Virus record (IMG/VR): IMGVR_UViG_3300044624_002315
Coordinates: 1 to 32,970 of that record
Source of the DNA: a virus
Strand: one strand, 5' to 3'
Length of the DNA: 32,970 bases
A program made the translations under genes and the position numbers. Shown piece after piece: positions 2,754 through 31,494 of the stretch. The notes beneath the pieces are model-generated. The model was not told where the DNA came from. It saw only the letters and a program-made list of their open reading frames with translations, and did no database searches. Each line of letters opens with the position of its first letter. Within the stretch, counting starts at the first letter, position 1.

Positions 2754-2903
2754 ATGAAAAAGTACTGCATATTTCCTGATGAAACTAAAATAGAACTTCA
2801 TTCAATTTTAGATGTAACAGATACACAAACATATATCTGTTATTATGATGAAAATCTTCCACAAACACTTTGGGTTCCGAATGATTTTTTGAGCAATGAT
2901 TAA
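2754..2903 (+). CDS. Small hypothetical protein upstream of the PurA-like gene
   Basis: A 49-residue frame starting MKKYCIFPDETKIELHSI and ending in FLSND, overlapping the next ATG (2896) by 8 nt, as in coupled translation. An early-type promoter fits its ATG. No domain recognised. The overlap and promoter argue that it is real and not an antisense shadow of the minus-strand gene. Confidence 0.55.
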   Translation: MKKYCIFPDETKIELHSILDVTDTQTYICYYDENLPQTLWVPNDFLSND

Positions 2904-3909
2904 ACACGTTGATGTTATTGTCGGTCTTGCTTGGGGGGATGAAGGCAAGGGTAAAATTTCAAGTGCAATGGCCAAAGACTATGATATGGTCTGTCGTTGG
3001 AATGGTGGACCAAATGCTGGTCATACTGTTTATTTGGATGGGAAAAAATACAAAACCCATCTGATTCCTTCTGGTGTTTTTCATGGAAAGAAATCTGTTA
3101 TCGGTCCAAACTGTGTTCTGAATATTGAGAAGTTTTTCAAAGAAATTGAATATCTAAAAGAAAATGGATTCGATACATCTTTGGTAAAAGTTCATCCAAA
3201 TACTCATGTGATTACGGATGCACACATTGAATATGATCTGAAACATTTGAAACCAAAACTTGGAACTACAGGTCAAGGTATTGCTCCTTGTTATGCAGAC
3301 AAAGCAAATCGTGTTGGTATTCAGGTTAGTAAAGCAAACTTCAATCCCTTAAAAGATTTTATTTGGGATGGAAAATTAGAAGGAAAAATTCTTTGTGAAG
3401 GTGCTCAAAGTATTTGGTTGGATATCAACTACGGTGATTATCCTTATGTGACAAGCTCTGAAACATTTCCTCACAATGCTTGTTCGCTTGGATTTTCACC
3501 CAAGAAAATTCGTGATATTATTGGTGTCGCTAAAATCTATGATACCAAAAGTGGAGTTGATCCGTTGTTTCCAGAATGTCTTTGGAGTGATGTAAAACTA
3601 AACAAGTTAATTGAACTTGGTCAAGAATTTGGTTCTACTACAGGAAGAAAAAGACTTGTGAATTGGTTGAATTTTGGAAGATTAAACAATGCTATTAATC
3701 TTTCAGGTTCAACCAAAGTAATCATCAATAAGTGTGATGTTTTTGAAAAAGTTGGAATCTTCCGAATTAATAATTTTTACGAAACATCTTTGGAAACAAA
3801 TTCTTTTGATCAGTTAAAAGACATCATTAAAAAGTCTTTGGTAAATCAAAACATCAATGGATTAAAACCAAATAATATTATTTTTTCTGGTGATCAGACG
3901 AATATTTAA
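2896..3909 (+). CDS. purA: Adenylosuccinate synthetase-family enzyme (PurA / PurZ0-like)
   Basis: The 337-residue protein is clearly of the PurA family: W-G-D-E-G-K-G-K at 13-20 (phosphate loop with the catalytic Asp15), G-G-P-N-A-G-H-T at 37-44 (catalytic His43), L-I-P-S-G at 56-60, G-T-T-G-Q-G at 123-128 (IMP loop), E-G-A-Q at 168-171, T-T-G-R-K-R at 248-253 (aspartate loop) and N-K-C-D at 278-281 (guanine recognition). Length matches the short archaeal form and phage PurZ, not the ~430-residue bacterial PurA. From memory, PurZ proteins that make the diaminopurine precursor from dGMP replace the catalytic Asp by Ser and use ATP; this protein keeps Asp and the GTP motif, so it is either an IMP-using PurA or a PurZ0-type enzyme. 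No DatZ- or MazZ-like partner is seen in the window. Family certain; substrate open. Confidence 0.88.
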   Translation: MIKHVDVIVGLAWGDEGKGKISSAMAKDYDMVCRWNGGPNAGHTVYLDGKKYKTHLIPSGVFHGKKSVIGPNCVLNIEKFFKEIEYLKENGFDTSLVKVHPNTHVITDAHIEYDLKHLKPKLGTTGQGIAPCYADKANRVGIQVSKANFNPLKDFIWDGKLEGKILCEGAQSIWLDINYGDYPYVTSSETFPHNACSLGFSPKKIRDIIGVAKIYDTKSGVDPLFPECLWSDVKLNKLIELGQEFGSTTGRKRLVNWLNFGRLNNAINLSGSTKVIINKCDVFEKVGIFRINNFYETSLETNSFDQLKDIIKKSLVNQNINGLKPNNIIFSGDQTNI

Positions 3910-15297: not shown

Positions 15298-15726
15298 ATG
15301 AAAATAGTAACTCTTTCATCTCATGCACTACTTCCTAAAAAAGGTTCTGTAAATGCAGCAGGATATGATCTTTATTCTATTGAAACTGGTGTAATAAAAC
15401 CTAAAGAAAGACGATTAATACCAACTGGAATAGCTCTAGCAATTCCTTCTGGATATTATGGAAGAATTGCTCCAAGATCTGGATTGGCTTTTAAACATGG
15501 AATTGATGTAATGGCTGGCGTTATTGATTCAGATTATCGTGGAGAAGTTGGAGTAATACTTTATAACTCTGATAGCTTTAATGATTTTATTTTTAATATT
15601 GGAGATAAAATAGCACAAATTATTTTTGAAAAACATTATGATTTTGTTTTTAATGAAGTTTTTCAAATTAAAGATTTAAATGAAACACAAAGAGGAAGTG
15701 GTGGATTTGGTTCTACTGGAGTTTAA
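15298..15726 (+). CDS. dut: dUTPase
   Basis: The 142-residue protein has all five trimeric dUTPase motifs: A-A-G-Y-D-L-Y-S at 20-27, P-R-S-G-L-A at 59-64, G-V-I-D-S-D-Y-R-G-E at 74-83 (catalytic Asp and uracil pocket), a G-D-K-I-A-Q-I-I segment near 102-109, and R-G-S-G-G-F-G-S-T-G at the C-terminus, the P-loop-like arm. It hydrolyses dUTP to dUMP, keeping uracil out of DNA and feeding dTMP synthesis; the dCMP deaminase at 17622 supplies the same pool. Its stop overlaps the next start by 1 nt. Confidence 0.96.
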   Translation: MKIVTLSSHALLPKKGSVNAAGYDLYSIETGVIKPKERRLIPTGIALAIPSGYYGRIAPRSGLAFKHGIDVMAGVIDSDYRGEVGVILYNSDSFNDFIFNIGDKIAQIIFEKHYDFVFNEVFQIKDLNETQRGSGGFGSTGV

Positions 15727-16223
15727 TGAATATTTTTATTTTAGACGAGCATCCTGCTACCGCAGCAAGATATCACTGTGATAAACACATACCTAAAATG
15801 TGTGTTGAGTTATATCAGCAATTAGGTTCTGCTGTTATTCGTCATGGTGCTACACCTGCCCAAATGCCTTTGACATCCAAAGGAACACCATTAAAGGGTG
15901 GTTATCACAATCATCCTTGCACTCGTTGGTGTGGCGATAGCAGAATCAATTTTATGTGGGCAATGACACATGCTTTGGCTTTGTGTGAGGAATATACCAG
16001 AAGATATTCTAAGATTCATAGCTGTGAAGCTGGTCTTAAACATTTAGCTGATATGCAACATATGATCGAAGGCGAACAAGTTACTCCGTTTGCTCAAGCA
16101 ATGCCTGATCAATATAAATCACACGATGCTGTCTATTCTTATAGACAATATTATATCCATGAAAAGAAAAACTTTGCCAAATGGGAAAAATTAAATAACA
16201 TTCCCGAATGGTGGATACTATGA
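15726..16223 (+). CDS. Conserved phage protein of unknown function
   Basis: 165 residues: MNIFILDEHPATAARYHCDKH then P-K-M-C-V-E-L, later H-N-H-P-C-T-R-W-C-G, E-E-Y-T-R-R-Y near 88-94, F-A-Q-A-M-P-D near 121-127 and Y-R-Q-Y-Y near 138-142. The family is widespread in phages and some bacteria, always with the D-K-H and Y-R-x-Y-Y elements, and has no established activity that I can name. The conserved His/Cys/Asp residues suggest a metal site or catalysis. ATGA overlap with the next gene. Confidence 0.75.
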   Translation: MNIFILDEHPATAARYHCDKHIPKMCVELYQQLGSAVIRHGATPAQMPLTSKGTPLKGGYHNHPCTRWCGDSRINFMWAMTHALALCEEYTRRYSKIHSCEAGLKHLADMQHMIEGEQVTPFAQAMPDQYKSHDAVYSYRQYYIHEKKNFAKWEKLNNIPEWWIL

Positions 16224-16831: not shown

Positions 16832-17054
16832 ACCATCGGAATTAGAAGATGCTGTATATTACTCTGATTTTAGTGGAAAAATATTAAACGAACAACCTCC
16901 GATAGAGATTAATATTGACTTTAATTATGGGTCAAAGTATGATGGATGTAAGTTAGAATTACATTTGGATGATGAAGATTTTGACCAGCTTTTAAGCTTT
17001 TTAAAAACCAAATTATCTGAAAATTTTAAACATAATTATGAGCAGTTTAAATAA
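16815..17054 (+). CDS. Hypothetical small acidic protein
   Basis: 79 residues, net acidic, with D-F-S-G-K-I-L-N-E near 18-26 and L-H-L-D-D-E-D-F near 50-57 before an amphipathic C-terminal helix. It overlaps both neighbours by 17 nt, typical of this packed unit. No family recognised. Confidence 0.6.
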   Translation: MKKILKPSELEDAVYYSDFSGKILNEQPPIEINIDFNYGSKYDGCKLELHLDDEDFDQLLSFLKTKLSENFKHNYEQFK

Positions 17055-17625
17055 AGACATTGTATTGGTTTTAAACAAAAATTGGCAAGCTATTAATATC
17101 AGTACACCAGCCGATGCATTATCCATGATGTATTCGAATACTGCTACTGGATTAGATATTCGTGGAAAGGACGATATGGTTCCTTTAACTTGGAAACAAT
17201 GGGTCGATTTATCATGTTCCGAAGACGATCATTTTGTAAAAACGATTCAGGGTAATGTAAAAATTCCTAAAATTATTATTTTGTGCAGATATGATAAAGT
17301 TCCTAAAAAACGTCCTAAAATAACTCGTAAGGGTATTTGGATTAGAGATCAGGGGATTTGTCAATATACTGGTAAAAAAATAAATCCAAACGAAGGAAAT
17401 ATAGATCATGTAATTCCAAAAAGCAGGGGCGGTGCTACTGATTGGACTAACTGCGTTTTAGCACATAAAAAAGTAAATGCTAAAAAAGCAGATAGAACAC
17501 CAGAAGAAGCTGGACTGAAATTAATTCGTCAACCGTATGTTCCGAAAGAACTTCCAGTTTCTTTTTATCTTACAAACAAATATAACATCCAAGAATGGGA
17601 ATTGTTTTTGAATTCTAAATCATGA
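17038..17625 (+). CDS. HNH endonuclease (stand-alone, TPEEAGLKL type)
   Basis: The 195-residue protein starts with L-V-L-N-K-N-W-Q-A-I-N-I and A-D-A-L-S-M-M-Y, then I-W-I-R-D-Q-G-I-C-Q-Y-T-G-K-K-I, I-D-H-V-I-P-K-S-R-G-G-A-T-D-W-T-N near 120-136 (catalytic His), and R-T-P-E-E-A-G-L-K-L. This is the common bacterial/phage HNH family, distinct from the two smaller HNH proteins at 1177 and 5785. The usual second C-x-x-C pair is incomplete (C-Q-Y-T-G, then A-H-K-K-V-N), so it may not bind structural zinc. It overlaps the dCMP deaminase by ATGA; role in the phage unknown. Confidence 0.87.
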   Translation: MSSLNKDIVLVLNKNWQAINISTPADALSMMYSNTATGLDIRGKDDMVPLTWKQWVDLSCSEDDHFVKTIQGNVKIPKIIILCRYDKVPKKRPKITRKGIWIRDQGICQYTGKKINPNEGNIDHVIPKSRGGATDWTNCVLAHKKVNAKKADRTPEEAGLKLIRQPYVPKELPVSFYLTNKYNIQEWELFLNSKS

Positions 17626-18029
17626 GATCATCTTGGCCAAAACATGCAATGGAACTTGCAAAGGTTGCTATGCTCAGATCCGAAGATCCCCATAAAAAAG
17701 TGGGTGCTTGTGTTCTGGGACATAACAACGAAGTTTTAGCTGTTGCTTATAATGGTTTAGCCAGTGGTGTAAACGTTCACAATAGCTTTTGGAAAGATAG
17801 AGACGAGCGTAGACCTTATATGATTCATGCTGAAACAAATTGTTTGGCAAGAATTCGTCAAGGCGAAGGGAAGTTAATAGCTTGTACTTTGCTACCTTGT
17901 TCCAATTGCGCTATTAACATTGTGGCTCATGGAATTAAAGAAGTGTTCTTTAATGAAATGTACAGCAGAGATTACAAGGCTGTGGAAATTTTTAGTTTTT
18001 ATGGCGTTAAGTGCCATCAACTTGATTAA
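17622..18029 (+). CDS. dcd-like: dCMP deaminase-family protein
   Basis: The 135-residue protein has the zinc cytidine/deoxycytidylate deaminase motifs: H-A-E at 69-71 (zinc His and proton-shuttle Glu) and P-C-S-N-C at 92-96 (two zinc Cys). The N-terminal D-P-H-K-K-V-G-A-C and Y-N-G-L are typical of the dCMP branch. It would turn dCMP to dUMP, complementing the dUTPase gene upstream. It lacks the second zinc site of T4 Cd but is of normal size. Its stop overlaps the stop of the convergent reductase gene by 4 nt. Confidence 0.92.
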   Translation: MRSSWPKHAMELAKVAMLRSEDPHKKVGACVLGHNNEVLAVAYNGLASGVNVHNSFWKDRDERRPYMIHAETNCLARIRQGEGKLIACTLLPCSNCAINIVAHGIKEVFFNEMYSRDYKAVEIFSFYGVKCHQLD

Positions 18030-18925
18030 AGTTCGTATGCCTCTTTTGCCAATCTATAATCGATTGGTTCAGCCATAGAATATTCTTTGACTGCTTTCTC
18101 TATACTTTCTTTGACAGTTAGAAGTCCTAATCCAATACTTTCAATTTTATCCGTATTTAAAATACAATTACTTCTACCAACTTTAAATTTGGCATCAGGA
18201 ATAGAAACAAAATTCCACTTTGGATTTTCGAATCCATAAGACTTTAAAATTTCAACAACTTCTTTGGCTTCAATACTACCTTTATTGGTAACATTATAAA
18301 CTCCTAAAGGTCTATTTTTTTCAATGAACTTGTAAACAAAATTTACAAGATCATCAACATTAGTAATAGAATTTTGTTGGCTGATTAAATTGTCATAATT
18401 TAATAATTTCCAAAGATAATTTTTAGATTCAGGAACGCCATTAAACGGTATACGAATTCTGAAAATATATCTTTCCAAATGTTCGCTCAACTTTTCAAAA
18501 GCATCTTTTGTTTTTGAATAAAAAGAACTTTGATTACTATCTGCTCCAAAATTTGGGAGATCGTCTTCTGTGTATTGTTGTGAATACCCATCATAAATAC
18601 AACCAGATCCAATATGAATAATTGGAATTCTGAGACGGTTGGCGACTTTAGTGATATATAAAGGTACTGTTACGTTATAATGGTAACAATTTTCTTTATC
18701 GGTTTCACATGCTTCAACATTGGGTCTACCAGTATAACCAGAACAATTTATAATCCAATCAAAATTTGCTTTTGGATAGTCTGATTCTCTATGTAAAAAT
18801 TTTACAAATGTATCAGGATCTTCATAATTCAAATCAGATTTACTAATATGAACTATGTTATGTTTTTCATTAGCTTTTGCTAAATAATTTCCAATATATC
18901 CCTTTCCAAGTATTAATACTTTCAT
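18026..18925 (-). CDS. RmlD/epimerase-like NAD(P)-dependent reductase (extended SDR)
   Basis: From the ATG at 18925 the protein has 299 residues and starts MKVLILGKGYIGNYL, the Rossmann G-x-G-x-x-G. Then come I-I-N-C-S-G-Y-T-G-R-P, H-I-G-S-G-C-I-Y-D-G-Y and the catalytic Y-S-K-T-K. This layout matches dTDP-4-dehydrorhamnose reductase and related sugar-nucleotide enzymes. An in-frame ATG at 18976 would add 17 residues that lie inside the RNR gene; 18925 is better because it starts 1 nt after the RNR stop. Co-transcription with RNR is odd; it may make a sugar used in surface or DNA decoration. Confidence 0.8.
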   Translation of the reverse strand: MKVLILGKGYIGNYLAKANEKHNIVHISKSDLNYEDPDTFVKFLHRESDYPKANFDWIINCSGYTGRPNVEACETDKENCYHYNVTVPLYITKVANRLRIPIIHIGSGCIYDGYSQQYTEDDLPNFGADSNQSSFYSKTKDAFEKLSEHLERYIFRIRIPFNGVPESKNYLWKLLNYDNLISQQNSITNVDDLVNFVYKFIEKNRPLGVYNVTNKGSIEAKEVVEILKSYGFENPKWNFVSIPDAKFKVGRSNCILNTDKIESIGLGLLTVKESIEKAVKEYSMAEPIDYRLAKEAYEL

Positions 18926-18926
18926 A

Positions 18927-20906
18927 TTATTTGATTGGACATGCACCGCCTTCACATTCCAAACCTTGAATAGCATCTTCTCCCATATCAGAAGATTTCA
19001 TTGTTTGAATTGGTTTAACTTTAGCTTTATTTTTTTCGTATGTTTCACCATTAATTTCTTCGTATGGTGCTTGTTTGAATCCGTGATTTTGTCTCAACAA
19101 AAAGCTTACAGATTTAATTGAATTTTGATAATTTTCTTCTAACCATTTTTTAAGCTCTGGAAGTTCTTCTTCCGAGTAATATGCGGTAACACTAACTGCA
19201 TTATCTGACCAAATAGTTTGAAGTTTTTTAACTGTTTCCAGTTGTTTGATAACTCCCATATCTGCTGCAAAAATTGCACCATCTGGTGTTTCGCACGGAA
19301 ACTCAATAACAACGGTATCATGATTTTCTGAGCCATCAAAATTGATGACATATTCGGTATGATATCCCATATCTCTGCAATATTGAACTAATGGATCATT
19401 ACTTGCCATACGAACACGACGAGTATAATATTTTGAATAAGCGGGGTGGATTCCTGGTGTAGCACCACCAAGAAGACTTAATGTTCCACTAGGCTTAATT
19501 GTTGTAAGTTTAATACTACGAGGCCATCCTTTTTGTTTACTCCACTCTTTATCAAATTTTCTCAATTCTTTATAACAATCGTCAAGCCAATCGACTTTAT
19601 CTAATGCTTGACAAACACCAGTTACTCCCAAACCAAGACGCATGTTCTTGTGAACAATTTTATTTGTTTCATCGTGAATGAATGGAAGTGCAGCGATTGC
19701 TTTTTGTGTTTTATAAAGCAATCTGGCACAATCAACCAATTCTTCTTTGTTTGAAATATTATTCAAATAAAGTTCTGAGAGATTGCAACACTCATAAGAG
19801 GCAAGACTAATTTCACCACATGGGTTTGTACCAACTACATTGTCTTCATCGGTTGGATAAAGACTAGAATCCTTCATTGGACCATCTTTAATTCTTCCAT
19901 ATTTTTGAGAAAGAGGAAGGTTAAAGAAACCATAAGGTTCGCCTTTTGCAAAACCAGTTTCTTTATCTGTTGTATAACCATTTTGCCAGATCTCGTTTGA
20001 GATGTGGGAAAAGTCATCAGCATAAATCGTGTTGTTAGACATTGCTCTCCAGTTAGGAATATTTCCCAATGACCAATTTTTGGCGCGTAAAAAGAGATAA
20101 TCATCAGGATCTCCTATAGCAATTTGGGCAGAGCGACGAACATTACCAGAAACAACAATACTTCCAATAATATTACAAATATCTAATACATCGATAGAAC
20201 GAAGCTTTTTGCCTTCTCTTGTTTGAAAGATTTTTGCAATTTTGTCAATACCTTCGATTAATATTCCTGCTCCGCTTGCTTGTCCACCGAAACCTTGAAT
20301 CTTTTCACCTGCACCACGAATAAGGATTGTAGAATAATTAAAAGATTTTCCTGTTACATAAAATGCATGAAGAACTCGATCTAAAAGTTCGATCCAGCCT
20401 TCACGACTATCTGGAATAATAAACTTTGCATCTTTTGTACATTCATGTGTAATCGTTACACCTTTTTTAATTTTAGGAAGTTCGTGAATATCTTCTCTAC
20501 GAATAGAAAATCCGACACCACCACCAAGCATTAAATTTTCAAATAAAAACAAAAATGCTTTTGGTTCATTCATAGACACATTCCAACAATTCAATAAAGA
20601 ATTTGCTCCAAAACGCTCAACTGTGTTTGTTCCTAATTGCCAAAGCATTCTTCCTGCATAGTTGCAACGCAAGTTGAAAATATGATCAAACAGTCTTTCG
20701 GCTTCTTCTTGTGTATAATCTGCACCTAGTTTTTGTGCTCCGTTGATACAACGTTGAATTGTTTCATGCCACTCTTCTTTTTGTCCATCGTCTTTTAAAC
20801 GAGCATATGTTCTTTTATAAACAATATAACCAAGTCCATTGAAACCCCAATTAGTTTTTTTGTTAGAATATTTTTTAACAAACGAATCCGAAATAATTTT
20901 TTCCAT
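18927..20906 (-). CDS. nrdJ: Adenosylcobalamin-dependent (class II) ribonucleotide reductase
   Basis: The 659-residue protein matches the monomeric class II reductase of the Lactobacillus leichmannii type. Key residues: Cys107 (L-L-N-C-W-N) and Cys374 (E-C-C-N-L) as the redox pair, Cys363 in N-P-C-G-E-I as the radical Cys, spaced 11 residues as in RTPR, I-K-P-S-G-T-L-S-L-L for substrate phosphate, and a C-terminal C-E-G-G-A-C (651 and 656) that re-reduces the active site. No class I small subunit or NrdD/G is seen. It makes dNTPs without needing oxygen but needs host B12. It opens the minus-strand pair with the SDR gene. Confidence 0.95.
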   Translation of the reverse strand: MEKIISDSFVKKYSNKKTNWGFNGLGYIVYKRTYARLKDDGQKEEWHETIQRCINGAQKLGADYTQEEAERLFDHIFNLRCNYAGRMLWQLGTNTVERFGANSLLNCWNVSMNEPKAFLFLFENLMLGGGVGFSIRREDIHELPKIKKGVTITHECTKDAKFIIPDSREGWIELLDRVLHAFYVTGKSFNYSTILIRGAGEKIQGFGGQASGAGILIEGIDKIAKIFQTREGKKLRSIDVLDICNIIGSIVVSGNVRRSAQIAIGDPDDYLFLRAKNWSLGNIPNWRAMSNNTIYADDFSHISNEIWQNGYTTDKETGFAKGEPYGFFNLPLSQKYGRIKDGPMKDSSLYPTDEDNVVGTNPCGEISLASYECCNLSELYLNNISNKEELVDCARLLYKTQKAIAALPFIHDETNKIVHKNMRLGLGVTGVCQALDKVDWLDDCYKELRKFDKEWSKQKGWPRSIKLTTIKPSGTLSLLGGATPGIHPAYSKYYTRRVRMASNDPLVQYCRDMGYHTEYVINFDGSENHDTVVIEFPCETPDGAIFAADMGVIKQLETVKKLQTIWSDNAVSVTAYYSEEELPELKKWLEENYQNSIKSVSFLLRQNHGFKQAPYEEINGETYEKNKAKVKPIQTMKSSDMGEDAIQGLECEGGACPIK

Positions 20907-29004: not shown

Positions 29005-31494
29005 ATGGCAACAAGAACAATAGCATCACCTGGTGTACAAATAAATGAAATTGATCTCAGTATTATTTCCAGACCAATCGGTTTAACAGACGTATTCATT
29101 ACTGGATTTGCTGATCAAGGCCCAACTGAAGATTTTGTTAGTATTGGAAGTCTTTCTGAATTTGAACAAGTTTATGGAAGTCCAAAAAATGCAGCAGAAA
29201 GATATCTTTATCATTCTGCAAAACAAATTTTATTAAATTCACCTGCTAACCTTTTAGTTTCCAGAATGCCTTATGGATCTGGTGGTGGTGAAGGGTACTC
29301 CAATCAATATAGTGCTTTGGTATTTCCTATCAGAAACCAAGGTGTGGGTAGTAATATATTTGGGGTAACTACTATTACAGTTCAAACAAATGGAAGTGGG
29401 TTTACAACAATTCCAAGTATTGAAATTGTTGGTGGTGGACCAAATGGAACAAACCCACCAATAAAAGCTACAGCAAGAGCAGTGATGGGTCTTTTTAGTG
29501 GTCTTTCGGGTGTGGCAGCAATTGAAATTACTAATCCTGGATATGGGTATGTTACAGCACCATCCGTTCAAATAATAGGCGGAACTCCATCTATCGCCGC
29601 AGTTGCTAATGCAACTATTTCATTAATTGGACAGGTTACAAATAACTATGAAACAAGTTTAAGTTATGTTTTAGAAGAACCGATTTCAATGCTTCTCACA
29701 GAAGAGCAATATGAAAAACTTGTACAAAATGATATTCGTTGGTTTTCTTCATATAGTCCAACAATTAATGGATTCGATGAAATTGGTAAAGCTGGTTTAA
29801 TTATTCTAAATAATTCCAAAACAACAGTCAATAATTTATATGAAGGATATTATATCAGTATTGCTGATAATTCAGAAGTAAATCCTGCAACCGATTATAC
29901 GGCTGTAACTGGTGTTAAATCTGTTAATACAATTAATAACAATCAAACACAATCTTATATTTCTATTCCACAAACAAGATTAAATTTTAGCTTGACACAA
30001 TCATACTCTTCATTTGGAGGAACCAGTATTTCACAAACAATTGAAAATTATCCAATTGGATATGATTTTGGAACAAGATCGTTTAATGATAGTTTATTAA
30101 TTACTTTATTCAAAATTAATTCGAATCAATATGGTCAAGATACTGTAACTTTAGATTATAGTGTTGCCGAAGGATTTGCTGGATCTCTTTATTCAAAGAG
30201 AACTCAGAATAATCCTGGTGGCGGAACACCAGATAGCTTTTATATTGATACTGTAATCAATAACTCTTCAAATAATTTGAAAGTTTTCACAAATCCATAT
30301 ATTTCCACAAGAGGATCTTGGATTTCTGATGATGGTAATCCTACTAAATCAATTAGAGTTTCTGGTGCTGCTAAAAATCTTTATTCAATAGGTGTTTATA
30401 CATCTGATACAGATTTTTCAGCTAAAGAAGTAGGAAACGTTCCTCTTAAATTACAACGCATTTTAAGAAAAATCGAAAATGATGATGAGATGAACATCGA
30501 TGTTGTAGCTGAATGTGGTTTATCAACCATATGGGCTGGTGCTAGAATGCGCTCATTAGATCCTACTATTGAAGATACTAGAACAATATTTGATGAGACA
30601 TATAATGTAAACATTAGTACCATTAAATCTACTAATGGTTCAGCACCAACTGGTACTTTATATCAGTCTTATATTGATGTTGTTAATCAGTTCGTAGTTT
30701 TAGCAGATAAAACCAAAAAAGATCATGTGTTTATTGCTGATCCTTTAAGATATATATTTGTTCAAGGTGAAAACTCAAAAACAAGCGAAAAACAAAATTA
30801 CATATTCTCAACAGACATTTATTGGCCTCTAAAAAATATTTTTAGTTCTGTACAAAGTAGTTATGTAGCTGCTTATGGAAACTGGCTTAAAACAAATGAT
30901 ATAGTAACAAATAAACAAGTTTGGGTTCCAAACTCTGGATATATTGCTGCTGTTTTTGCTGAAACATCACAGGCAGCATTCCCTTGGTCTGCACCTGCTG
31001 GTTTTAATAGAGGTACATTAAATAATGTAACAGATATCGGTGTTAATCCAACACAGAAACAAAGAGATCTATTGTATAAAATGAATGTCAATCCTATTGC
31101 ATTTTTCTCAAATGACGGATATGTCATTTATGGACAAAAAACAATGTATCGTAAACCATCTGCATTTGACAGAGTTAACGTTCGTAGATTGTTCCTTACA
31201 CTTGAAAAAGAAACACAAGCATTGCTTAAATACTTTGTGTTTGAACCAAATACTTTTGCTACACGCAACAGATTAAAGGGTGCATTGATTCCTACATTTG
31301 ACAAAGCAAAATTAAACGATGGTCTTTATGATTATCAATTAATTTGTGATGAAAGAAACAATACAGCAGATGTAATCGACAATAACGAATTAAAAATTTC
31401 GATTTACATTAAACCAGTAAGAACTGCTGAATTTGTATTAGCAGACTTCATCGCCACAAGAACAGGAATTGATTTCGCTGAACTTAATGGTTAA
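29005..31494 (+). CDS. Tail sheath protein (T4 gp18-like) with two inserted G-x-G-Y repeats
   Basis: The 829-residue protein starts A-S-P-G-V-Q-I-N-E-I-D, the conserved sheath start (S-P-G-V-x-x-x-E), with V-F-I-T-G-F-A-D-Q-G-P at 30-40. The C-terminal sheath domain is clear: V-W-V-P-N-S-G-Y-I-A-A-V-F-A-E-T, P-A-G-F-N-R-G, D-R-V-N-V-R-R-L-F-L-T-L-E-K, F-E-P-N and the closing I-S-I-Y-I-K-P-V-R-T-A-E-F. T4 gp18 has 659 residues; the extra length includes two tandem repeats at about 128-161 and 176-206 of the form G-x-G-[FY]-x-T-x-P-S-x-x-I-x-G-G. They probably sit on the outer surface. It is first of the late tail operon, with its own late promoter. Confidence 0.93.
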   Translation: MATRTIASPGVQINEIDLSIISRPIGLTDVFITGFADQGPTEDFVSIGSLSEFEQVYGSPKNAAERYLYHSAKQILLNSPANLLVSRMPYGSGGGEGYSNQYSALVFPIRNQGVGSNIFGVTTITVQTNGSGFTTIPSIEIVGGGPNGTNPPIKATARAVMGLFSGLSGVAAIEITNPGYGYVTAPSVQIIGGTPSIAAVANATISLIGQVTNNYETSLSYVLEEPISMLLTEEQYEKLVQNDIRWFSSYSPTINGFDEIGKAGLIILNNSKTTVNNLYEGYYISIADNSEVNPATDYTAVTGVKSVNTINNNQTQSYISIPQTRLNFSLTQSYSSFGGTSISQTIENYPIGYDFGTRSFNDSLLITLFKINSNQYGQDTVTLDYSVAEGFAGSLYSKRTQNNPGGGTPDSFYIDTVINNSSNNLKVFTNPYISTRGSWISDDGNPTKSIRVSGAAKNLYSIGVYTSDTDFSAKEVGNVPLKLQRILRKIENDDEMNIDVVAECGLSTIWAGARMRSLDPTIEDTRTIFDETYNVNISTIKSTNGSAPTGTLYQSYIDVVNQFVVLADKTKKDHVFIADPLRYIFVQGENSKTSEKQNYIFSTDIYWPLKNIFSSVQSSYVAAYGNWLKTNDIVTNKQVWVPNSGYIAAVFAETSQAAFPWSAPAGFNRGTLNNVTDIGVNPTQKQRDLLYKMNVNPIAFFSNDGYVIYGQKTMYRKPSAFDRVNVRRLFLTLEKETQALLKYFVFEPNTFATRNRLKGALIPTFDKAKLNDGLYDYQLICDERNNTADVIDNNELKISIYIKPVRTAEFVLADFIATRTGIDFAELNG

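Follow-up and report, generated by a model that had tools for sequence, protein, structure and literature searches.

Phage homologs of adenylosuccinate synthetase (PurA) are easily misread as PurZ, and hence as signs of 2-aminoadenine DNA. A short PurA-family gene in a 32,970-bp viral sequence, which makes up an entire IMG/VR record and is called the window here, invites precisely this question: the only PHROG that its product matches, phrog_1211, bears the PurZ name. The initial annotation of the locus described an archaeal-type PurA and asked whether the enzyme might be a PurZ0 that supports a modified genome or a PurA that may boost the supply of AMP. What use would a phage have for such an enzyme? 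Across a clade of at least 53 loci, active-site residues contradict the PurZ reading and a partner gene offers guanine-to-adenine recycling. We favor, with a probability of roughly two in three, a scenario in which the PurA-like enzyme and a phage-encoded GMP reductase (GMPR) together form a two-step guanine-to-adenine converter that feeds an A/T-rich genome.

The window has the gene content of a T4-like tailed phage, with a tail sheath, an RNA ligase, a class II ribonucleotide reductase (RNR), and six tRNAs. A larger IMG/VR record of 211,587 bp (L004, also G001) contains the window at an offset of 77,794, an identity that was checked at six sampled 60-mers, all at one offset. It encodes an identical PurA together with a T4-type portal, Gp23, a terminase, and a family B DNA polymerase. 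The two ends of this record (L196:1-143 and the last 143 bases of L206) share an identical 143 bp that lies inside a tandem repeat of about 50 bp, which is a hint, not proof, that the genome is complete. A megablast search of phage records with the first 25 kb of the window returned no match. The best listed tblastn matches to the tail sheath protein (positions 29005 to 31494, 829 aa) span only residues ~505 to 829, and the N-terminal 500 residues are unmatched there. Two HNH endonuclease genes, possibly homing genes, are found at positions 1177 to 1731, 1.2 kb upstream of purA, and at positions 17038 to 17625, adjoining a dCMP deaminase gene.

The purA gene runs on the plus strand from an ATG at position 2896 to a stop codon ending at position 3909. 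We identify its 337-residue product as a short PurA-family adenylosuccinate synthetase from its Pfam match (PF00709, 278.6 bits against a cut-off of 27), its residues, and an AlphaFold2 model. Asp15 and His43 align with Asp13 and His41 of the Escherichia coli enzyme, the guanine motif reads N278-K279-C280-D281, and G220-V221-D222-P223 occupies the place of the cellular G-x-G-P; the sequence thus bears out the length and each of the motifs given in the initial annotation. We compared the protein with its relatives in an alignment of 218 rows, made up of the 53 family loci and the window, 80 genome_contigs loci (two from archaeal MAGs, and with L101 the same protein as L144), E. coli PurA, 50 long and 20 short archaeal PurA (the short ones picked out of longer lists), 4 PurZ, 5 PurZ0, and 4 other phage rows. 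The family loci include three whose proteins are identical to that of the window (L003 to L005).

The equivalents of E. coli D13, K16, N38, H41, T129, R143, Q224, T239, R303, R305, K331, and D333 are each kept in all 53 family loci, so that the catalytic residues, the GTP residues, and most of the IMP residues are intact throughout the family. Arg303 is the residue that balances the 2'-oxygen of IMP, according to PMC8342488. With both Arg303 and Asp333 kept, the residues therefore point to IMP and GTP as substrates. Family purA genes evolve under purifying selection (dN/dS of 0.05 to 0.17 in four pairs), and the model of the window protein (pLDDT 87.5, pTM 0.88) finds its best structural matches in canonical PurA (Z 37.0, rmsd 2.2).

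These residues bear directly on the possibility that the enzyme is a PurZ or PurZ0, making a 2-aminoadenine precursor from dGMP for a phage with Z in its virion DNA, which we regard as very remote. Intact Asp argues against even PurZ0, because Ser replaces the catalytic Asp in 147/147 phage PurZ and PurZ0 sequences, as stated in PMC12884076. Our alignment agrees: all cellular rows and 53/53 family loci carry Asp at the Asp13 position, where 9/9 PurZ and PurZ0 rows (4 and 5) carry Ser. Among these rows, Ghobes and Wayne are the only PurZ0 so treated in the accessible part of PMC12884076, and Rasovi, Hiyaa, and Parvaparticeps (PurZ0) and Kokobel2 (PurZ) were assigned by their Ser and their tree position. 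The Arg303 position is Arg in the window family, Lys in 5/5 PurZ0 rows, and Lys or Leu in 3/4 PurZ rows; the Asp333 position is Asp in the family and Asn in 4/4 PurZ rows. The NCBIfam PurZ model scores the window protein at 97.3 bits, against a cut-off of 300. On the other side stand the name of phrog_1211 and the topology tests described below. A third phage PurA-like branch (L060:2980-4308, L061:3001-4251, and L062:3001-3828; Mycobacterium phage LRRHood, Rhizobium phage RHph_TM3_3_6, and Vibrio phage phiTY18) keeps Asp13, has His at the V273 position, and is without Arg143 and Arg303.

The searches for DatZ and DNA polymerase A argue in the same direction. That the window holds no DatZ or MazZ, as first noted, stands, and the search has now been carried into the rest of the larger record, where DatZ and DNA polymerase A were not found and MazZ was looked for only in part, with the MazG profile PF03819 (the control of a DUF5664 search was silent). 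In the 211,587-bp record, neither the Wayne polymerase nor any of three DatZ queries taken from phages had a match, and profiles for the YfbR-type, DatZ-like family (PF12917) and for DNA polymerase A (PF00476) matched nothing in 12 long records, some possibly fragments, with cellular controls positive. MazG PF03819 occurs in 5 of these 12 records, the window's own not among them. Ghobes DmtZ gave no phmmer match at an E value of 0.1 in the larger record or the window. A modified genome, as entertained in the initial annotation, is not supported.

The archaeal label fares little better. The family appears to resemble archaeal enzymes only in length; in sequence, indels, and predicted fold it seems closer to canonical PurA. 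Over the core, the identity of the window protein amounts to 40% with bacterial PurA, 38% with long archaeal PurA, 33% with short archaeal PurA, 26% with PurZ, and 23% with PurZ0. Fifteen columns distinguish the short archaeal enzymes from the canonical ones; the family agrees with canonical PurA in 9 of them, with neither group in 6, and with the archaeal enzymes in 0. The main stretches of E. coli PurA missing from the family (156-199, 208-215, and 357-384) have other borders than those missing from the short archaeal enzymes (152-194 and 338-380). On these columns, these deletion borders, and the structural Z scores, we disfavor an archaeal-type enzyme.

The phylogeny with PurA, PurZ, and PurZ0 that the initial annotation proposed bears on this question. 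In a careful tree of 76 rows, the family forms one clade (support 100/100) outside a clade of short archaeal PurA, PurZ, and PurZ0 (100/100), on a long branch of 1.93. AU tests on a quick tree, from which L101 and three long-branch phage rows had been removed beforehand, do not reject the family joined with short archaeal PurA and PurZ/PurZ0 (p 0.49) or with PurZ/PurZ0 (p 0.265). Because the branch is long and these tests permit a joint clade, our call on both the PurZ and the archaeal question rests on columns, indels, and residues. It was the active-site residues, rather than the tree, that led us to reject PurZ/PurZ0 identity, and the family may still have a distant archaeal root.

The family has a ribose loop of its own. 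K218-S219-G220-V221-D222-P223, with the extra residue L224 (positions 3547 to 3567, plus strand), replaces the cellular R-V-G-x-G-P by column comparison, and the G-V-D-P that had struck the initial annotation as unusual is no fluke, for KSG[V/I/K]DP is found in 53/53 related viral loci. R272>K, V273>S, and G276>D each occur in all 53 family loci, at positions where the cellular residue is invariant in 151/151 PurA. Of the 50 columns in which the 151 cellular PurA are at least 97% uniform, the family departs from the cellular residue in nine, and at six of these a single new residue stands in 53/53 loci: N72, S172, K218, S219, D222, and N256, equivalent to E. coli G71, G225, R272, V273, G276, and G308, where at least 149/151 cellular PurA keep the cellular residue. 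Most of these six, by sequence position, flank residues that bind IMP or aspartate (Q224, R303, and R305) or form the ribose loop. The mean fraction of conserved columns kept is 80% in the window family, 77% in PurZ0, and 64% in PurZ. The window protein also misses the NCBIfam cut-offs for PurA equivalogs (NF002223, 267.8 versus 402; TIGR00184, 250.9 versus 395.55; NF003295, 170.8 versus 368). Because of the six pocket-side changes and these missed cut-offs, we describe it as a PurA-like variant whose preference for IMP is predicted, not demonstrated.

Do the changes signal another substrate? With G225>S, R272>K, V273>S, G276>D, G308>N, and G71>N in 53/53 loci, the remodeling around the ribose and the base of IMP could suit the enzyme to dIMP or to some other 6-oxopurine nucleotide, and the equivalent of V273 sits near the ribose C2' according to PMC8342488. 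Against this, Arg303, the 2'-oxygen residue, and Asp13 are both kept, and we consider a switch of substrate improbable. It would have a deoxynucleotide version, to which we give similarly little weight, in which a GMPR variant would make dIMP from the dGMP released as host DNA is degraded, and the remodeled PurA would turn this dIMP into deoxy-adenylosuccinate, the ribose-loop changes V273>S, G276>D, and R272>K being the adaptation. We know of no cell in which dG is converted directly to dA.

A putative purpose for an enzyme acting on IMP is suggested by its genomic partner. The larger record encodes, at 60,824 to 61,765 and thus outside the window, a GMP reductase of 313 aa, 18.9 kb upstream of purA and on the same strand. 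It was detected in a Pfam scan of the 90 larger proteins of that record (13 of the 103 listed ORFs, and 7 that cross piece borders, were left out), and its product (L255) scores 362.4 bits with the NCBIfam model NF003966, above the cut-off of 344. The IMPDH/GMPR family (PF00478) is present in 20 of 22 searched purA-carrying records; the records of L010 (176,807 bp) and L011 (72,531 bp) gave no match. A GMPR-family gene lies no more than 8 kb upstream of purA in 40/53 loci, 34 of them with both genes on the same strand and gaps of 552 to 4410 bp. Eight of the 13 loci without a flanking partner make up the close group of the window (L003 to L009 and L048), four records of which were searched and carry a PF00478 gene farther off. 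Two more are L010 and L011, L017 and L043 are cut just upstream of purA, and the record of L020 has the partner gene (L304). Seen from the partner, purA is present in 44 of 49 loci retrieved with the gene of the type found outside the close group (far type), within the stretch covered, and a 45th, L304, shares its contig with purA locus L020. The forward and reciprocal counts share many contigs and are not independent. The pairing of purA with a GMPR-family gene is near-obligate.

One PurA clade is accompanied by two GMPR lineages. The near-type GMPR of the window group shares 47 to 48% identity with its counterparts from Staphylococcus and Bacillus G phage records, and the remaining purA loci have the distinct far-type partner of 365 to 372 aa. 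The far-type proteins that were scanned, L238 and L252 (369 and 366 aa), reach none of the NCBIfam cut-offs, and an IMPDH model gives them their higher scores; for L238, TIGR01302 gives 173.2 bits and NF003966 gives 143.8, both under the cut-off. GMPR is without the Arg418-Tyr419 dyad of IMP dehydrogenase, has a truncated flap, and keeps Thr321 and Glu431, as set out in PMC2525682. In 20/20 phage partner sequences (4 near and 16 far), Cys319, Thr321, and Glu431 are present and the Arg418 column is a gap; both GuaB controls carry the R-Y dyad, and the Tyr aligned at 419 in far-type rows is not meaningful with the neighboring Arg column a gap. Despite the higher IMPDH score of L238, the missing dyad disfavors IMP dehydrogenase as the identity of the partner, and we infer that the far-type enzyme runs from GMP to IMP.

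A pairing of this kind could, of course, be incidental. A stand-alone auxiliary PurA would raise AMP and ATP from IMP made de novo by the host, and the GMPR gene would merely share a nucleotide cluster with it. The cluster also has dCMP deaminase, RNR, and nucleotide kinase genes, so that linkage could be at the level of the module, and L010 and L011 carry purA without a PF00478 match. We find this account unlikely, if the most serious of the competitors: the far-type GMPR gene is rarely found without purA, and the same PurA clade is paired with two different GMPR lineages. The earlier suggestion that the enzyme may boost AMP supply is supported, with the linked GMP reductase supplying a likely purpose for it. 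The pairing of GMPR with PurA in a phage is a new element, and full-text literature searches turned up no description of such a phage-encoded pair that we recognized. GMP reductase has been reported in a deep pelagimyophage group, in an account whose accessible text lacks the terms "purA" and "adenylosuccinate" (PMC7029224). A lead in support of the converter is that the host genes guaC and purA are both induced in Kayvirus-infected S. aureus (PMC9241854).

The window and its relatives carry further genes of DNA precursor supply. A dUTPase gene (15298 to 15726, plus strand; PF00692, 127.8 bits) encodes the canonical motif 3 GVIDSDYRGE; the protein is 35.6% identical to Ghobes DutZ, in which motif 3 is GVIDAGYRGE. 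A dCMP deaminase gene (PF00383, 60 bits) lies at 17622 to 18029 on the plus strand; in 42/45 more distant family loci, relatives of it are found no farther than 10 kb from purA. On the minus strand, at 18927 to 20906, is a class II (adenosylcobalamin) ribonucleoside-triphosphate reductase gene (TIGR02505, 392.2 bits against a cut-off of 340.05; phrog_367), whose product is 48% identical to that of Maribacter phage Panino. The 211,587-bp record also encodes ThyX. A pyrimidine dimer DNA glycosylase gene (15726 to 16223; PF03013, 30 bits) adjoins the dUTPase gene, and the gene of an RmlD/epimerase-type sugar nucleotide enzyme (18026 to 18976) overlaps the RNR gene. In L040, the cluster with purA comprises NrdB, NrdA, a sigma-like factor, a nucleotide kinase (DNMK), dCMP deaminase, and a GMPR-type gene. 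The reductase class thus varies within the purA clade, with class II RNR in the window group and class I NrdA/NrdB beside purA in L040. Directly upstream of purA in L040 (9787-10008) lies the gene of a 73-aa Cys-rich protein that has relatives in 34 other family loci and no match in Pfam.

GC content is 30 to 32% in the window and 25 to 32% across the 53 loci. The AT-rich phages phiYS40 (33% GC, 21 kb read) and Cr30 (39%, 7 kb), which have GC-rich hosts, carry GMPR-family genes as well. PurB (PF00206) had no match in 12 long records, and we therefore rejected a phage-encoded PurB; the last step to AMP would have to be the host's.

Taken with dCMP deaminase, dUTPase, RNR, and ThyX, the low GC content makes a guanine-to-adenine arm beside a cytosine-to-thymine arm of DNA precursor supply the parsimonious reading. 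In such a converter, GMP reductase would turn GMP and NADPH into IMP and ammonia, the PurA-like enzyme would join IMP with aspartate at the expense of GTP to give adenylosuccinate, host PurB would finish AMP, and the phage triphosphate reductase would make dATP; dCMP deaminase, dUTPase, and ThyX would serve the thymine side. The GMPR and PurA reactions each use up guanine nucleotides, which is established chemistry, and the pair could instead be there to lower GTP (and pppGpp) and so disarm GTP-dependent host regulation or defense, with AMP as a by-product. We think it hardly credible that this is their role, for the genes are grouped with DNA precursor genes.

Several observations count against the guanine-to-adenine converter. 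Purine genes 18.9 kb apart in the window's own phage are not neighbors, L010 and L011 are without PF00478, PurB had no match in 12 long records, the two far-type partners scanned fall below NCBIfam cut-offs and score higher as IMPDH, and the PurA family both misses the PurA equivalog cut-offs and carries six family-wide pocket-side changes. If the converter exists, a large phage actively pays for its base composition with purine enzymes.

Set against known systems, the window protein is closest to canonical PurA (E. coli, 1CG1; Arabidopsis/wheat, 1DJ2). Its model has the same fold (Z 36.5 to 37.0, rmsd 2.2), and its family has the catalytic, GTP, and most IMP residues and 9/15 diagnostic columns in common with these enzymes, whereas it is about 95 residues shorter, with six pocket-side changes and one extra ribose-loop residue. 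Short archaeal PurA (Pyrococcus horikoshii 5K7X and 20 archaeal rows) is like it in a length near 337 aa, in the Asp, and in Arg303, but differs in deletion borders and in the diagnostic columns, of which the family shares 0/15; the P. horikoshii enzyme aligns with the model at Z 32.1 and rmsd 3.1. Phage PurZ (phiVC8, 6FM1; S-2L, 7ODX) is likewise a short, phage-borne PF00709 protein; unlike the window protein, it has Ser for Asp, Asn for D333, an inserted loop, and DatZ-type neighbors (Z 27.0 to 28.9). Phage PurZ0 (Gordonia phage Archimedes, 7VF6; Ghobes; Wayne) shares PF00709 and the GTP-type Asp333 but has Ser for Asp13 and Lys for R303 (Z 28.8). The nearest protein among phage records, at 40%, is the PurA of a huge phage (LR756501, 735 kb), which differs in its 399 aa and in keeping the cellular RVGNGP loop. 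Cellular-type purA also turned up in phage-collection hits H3 to H19, in records labeled as Listeria, Staphylococcus, Enterococcus, Escherichia, or Acinetobacter phages, and looks like host contamination. On the partner's side, GMP reductases are known from Bacillus phage G (gp120), Caulobacter phage Cr30, and phiYS40, AT-rich phages like that of the window. A PurA of the window clade was not found for these three among the matches listed, and the GMP reductase of Bacillus phage G is 48% identical to that of the window phage.
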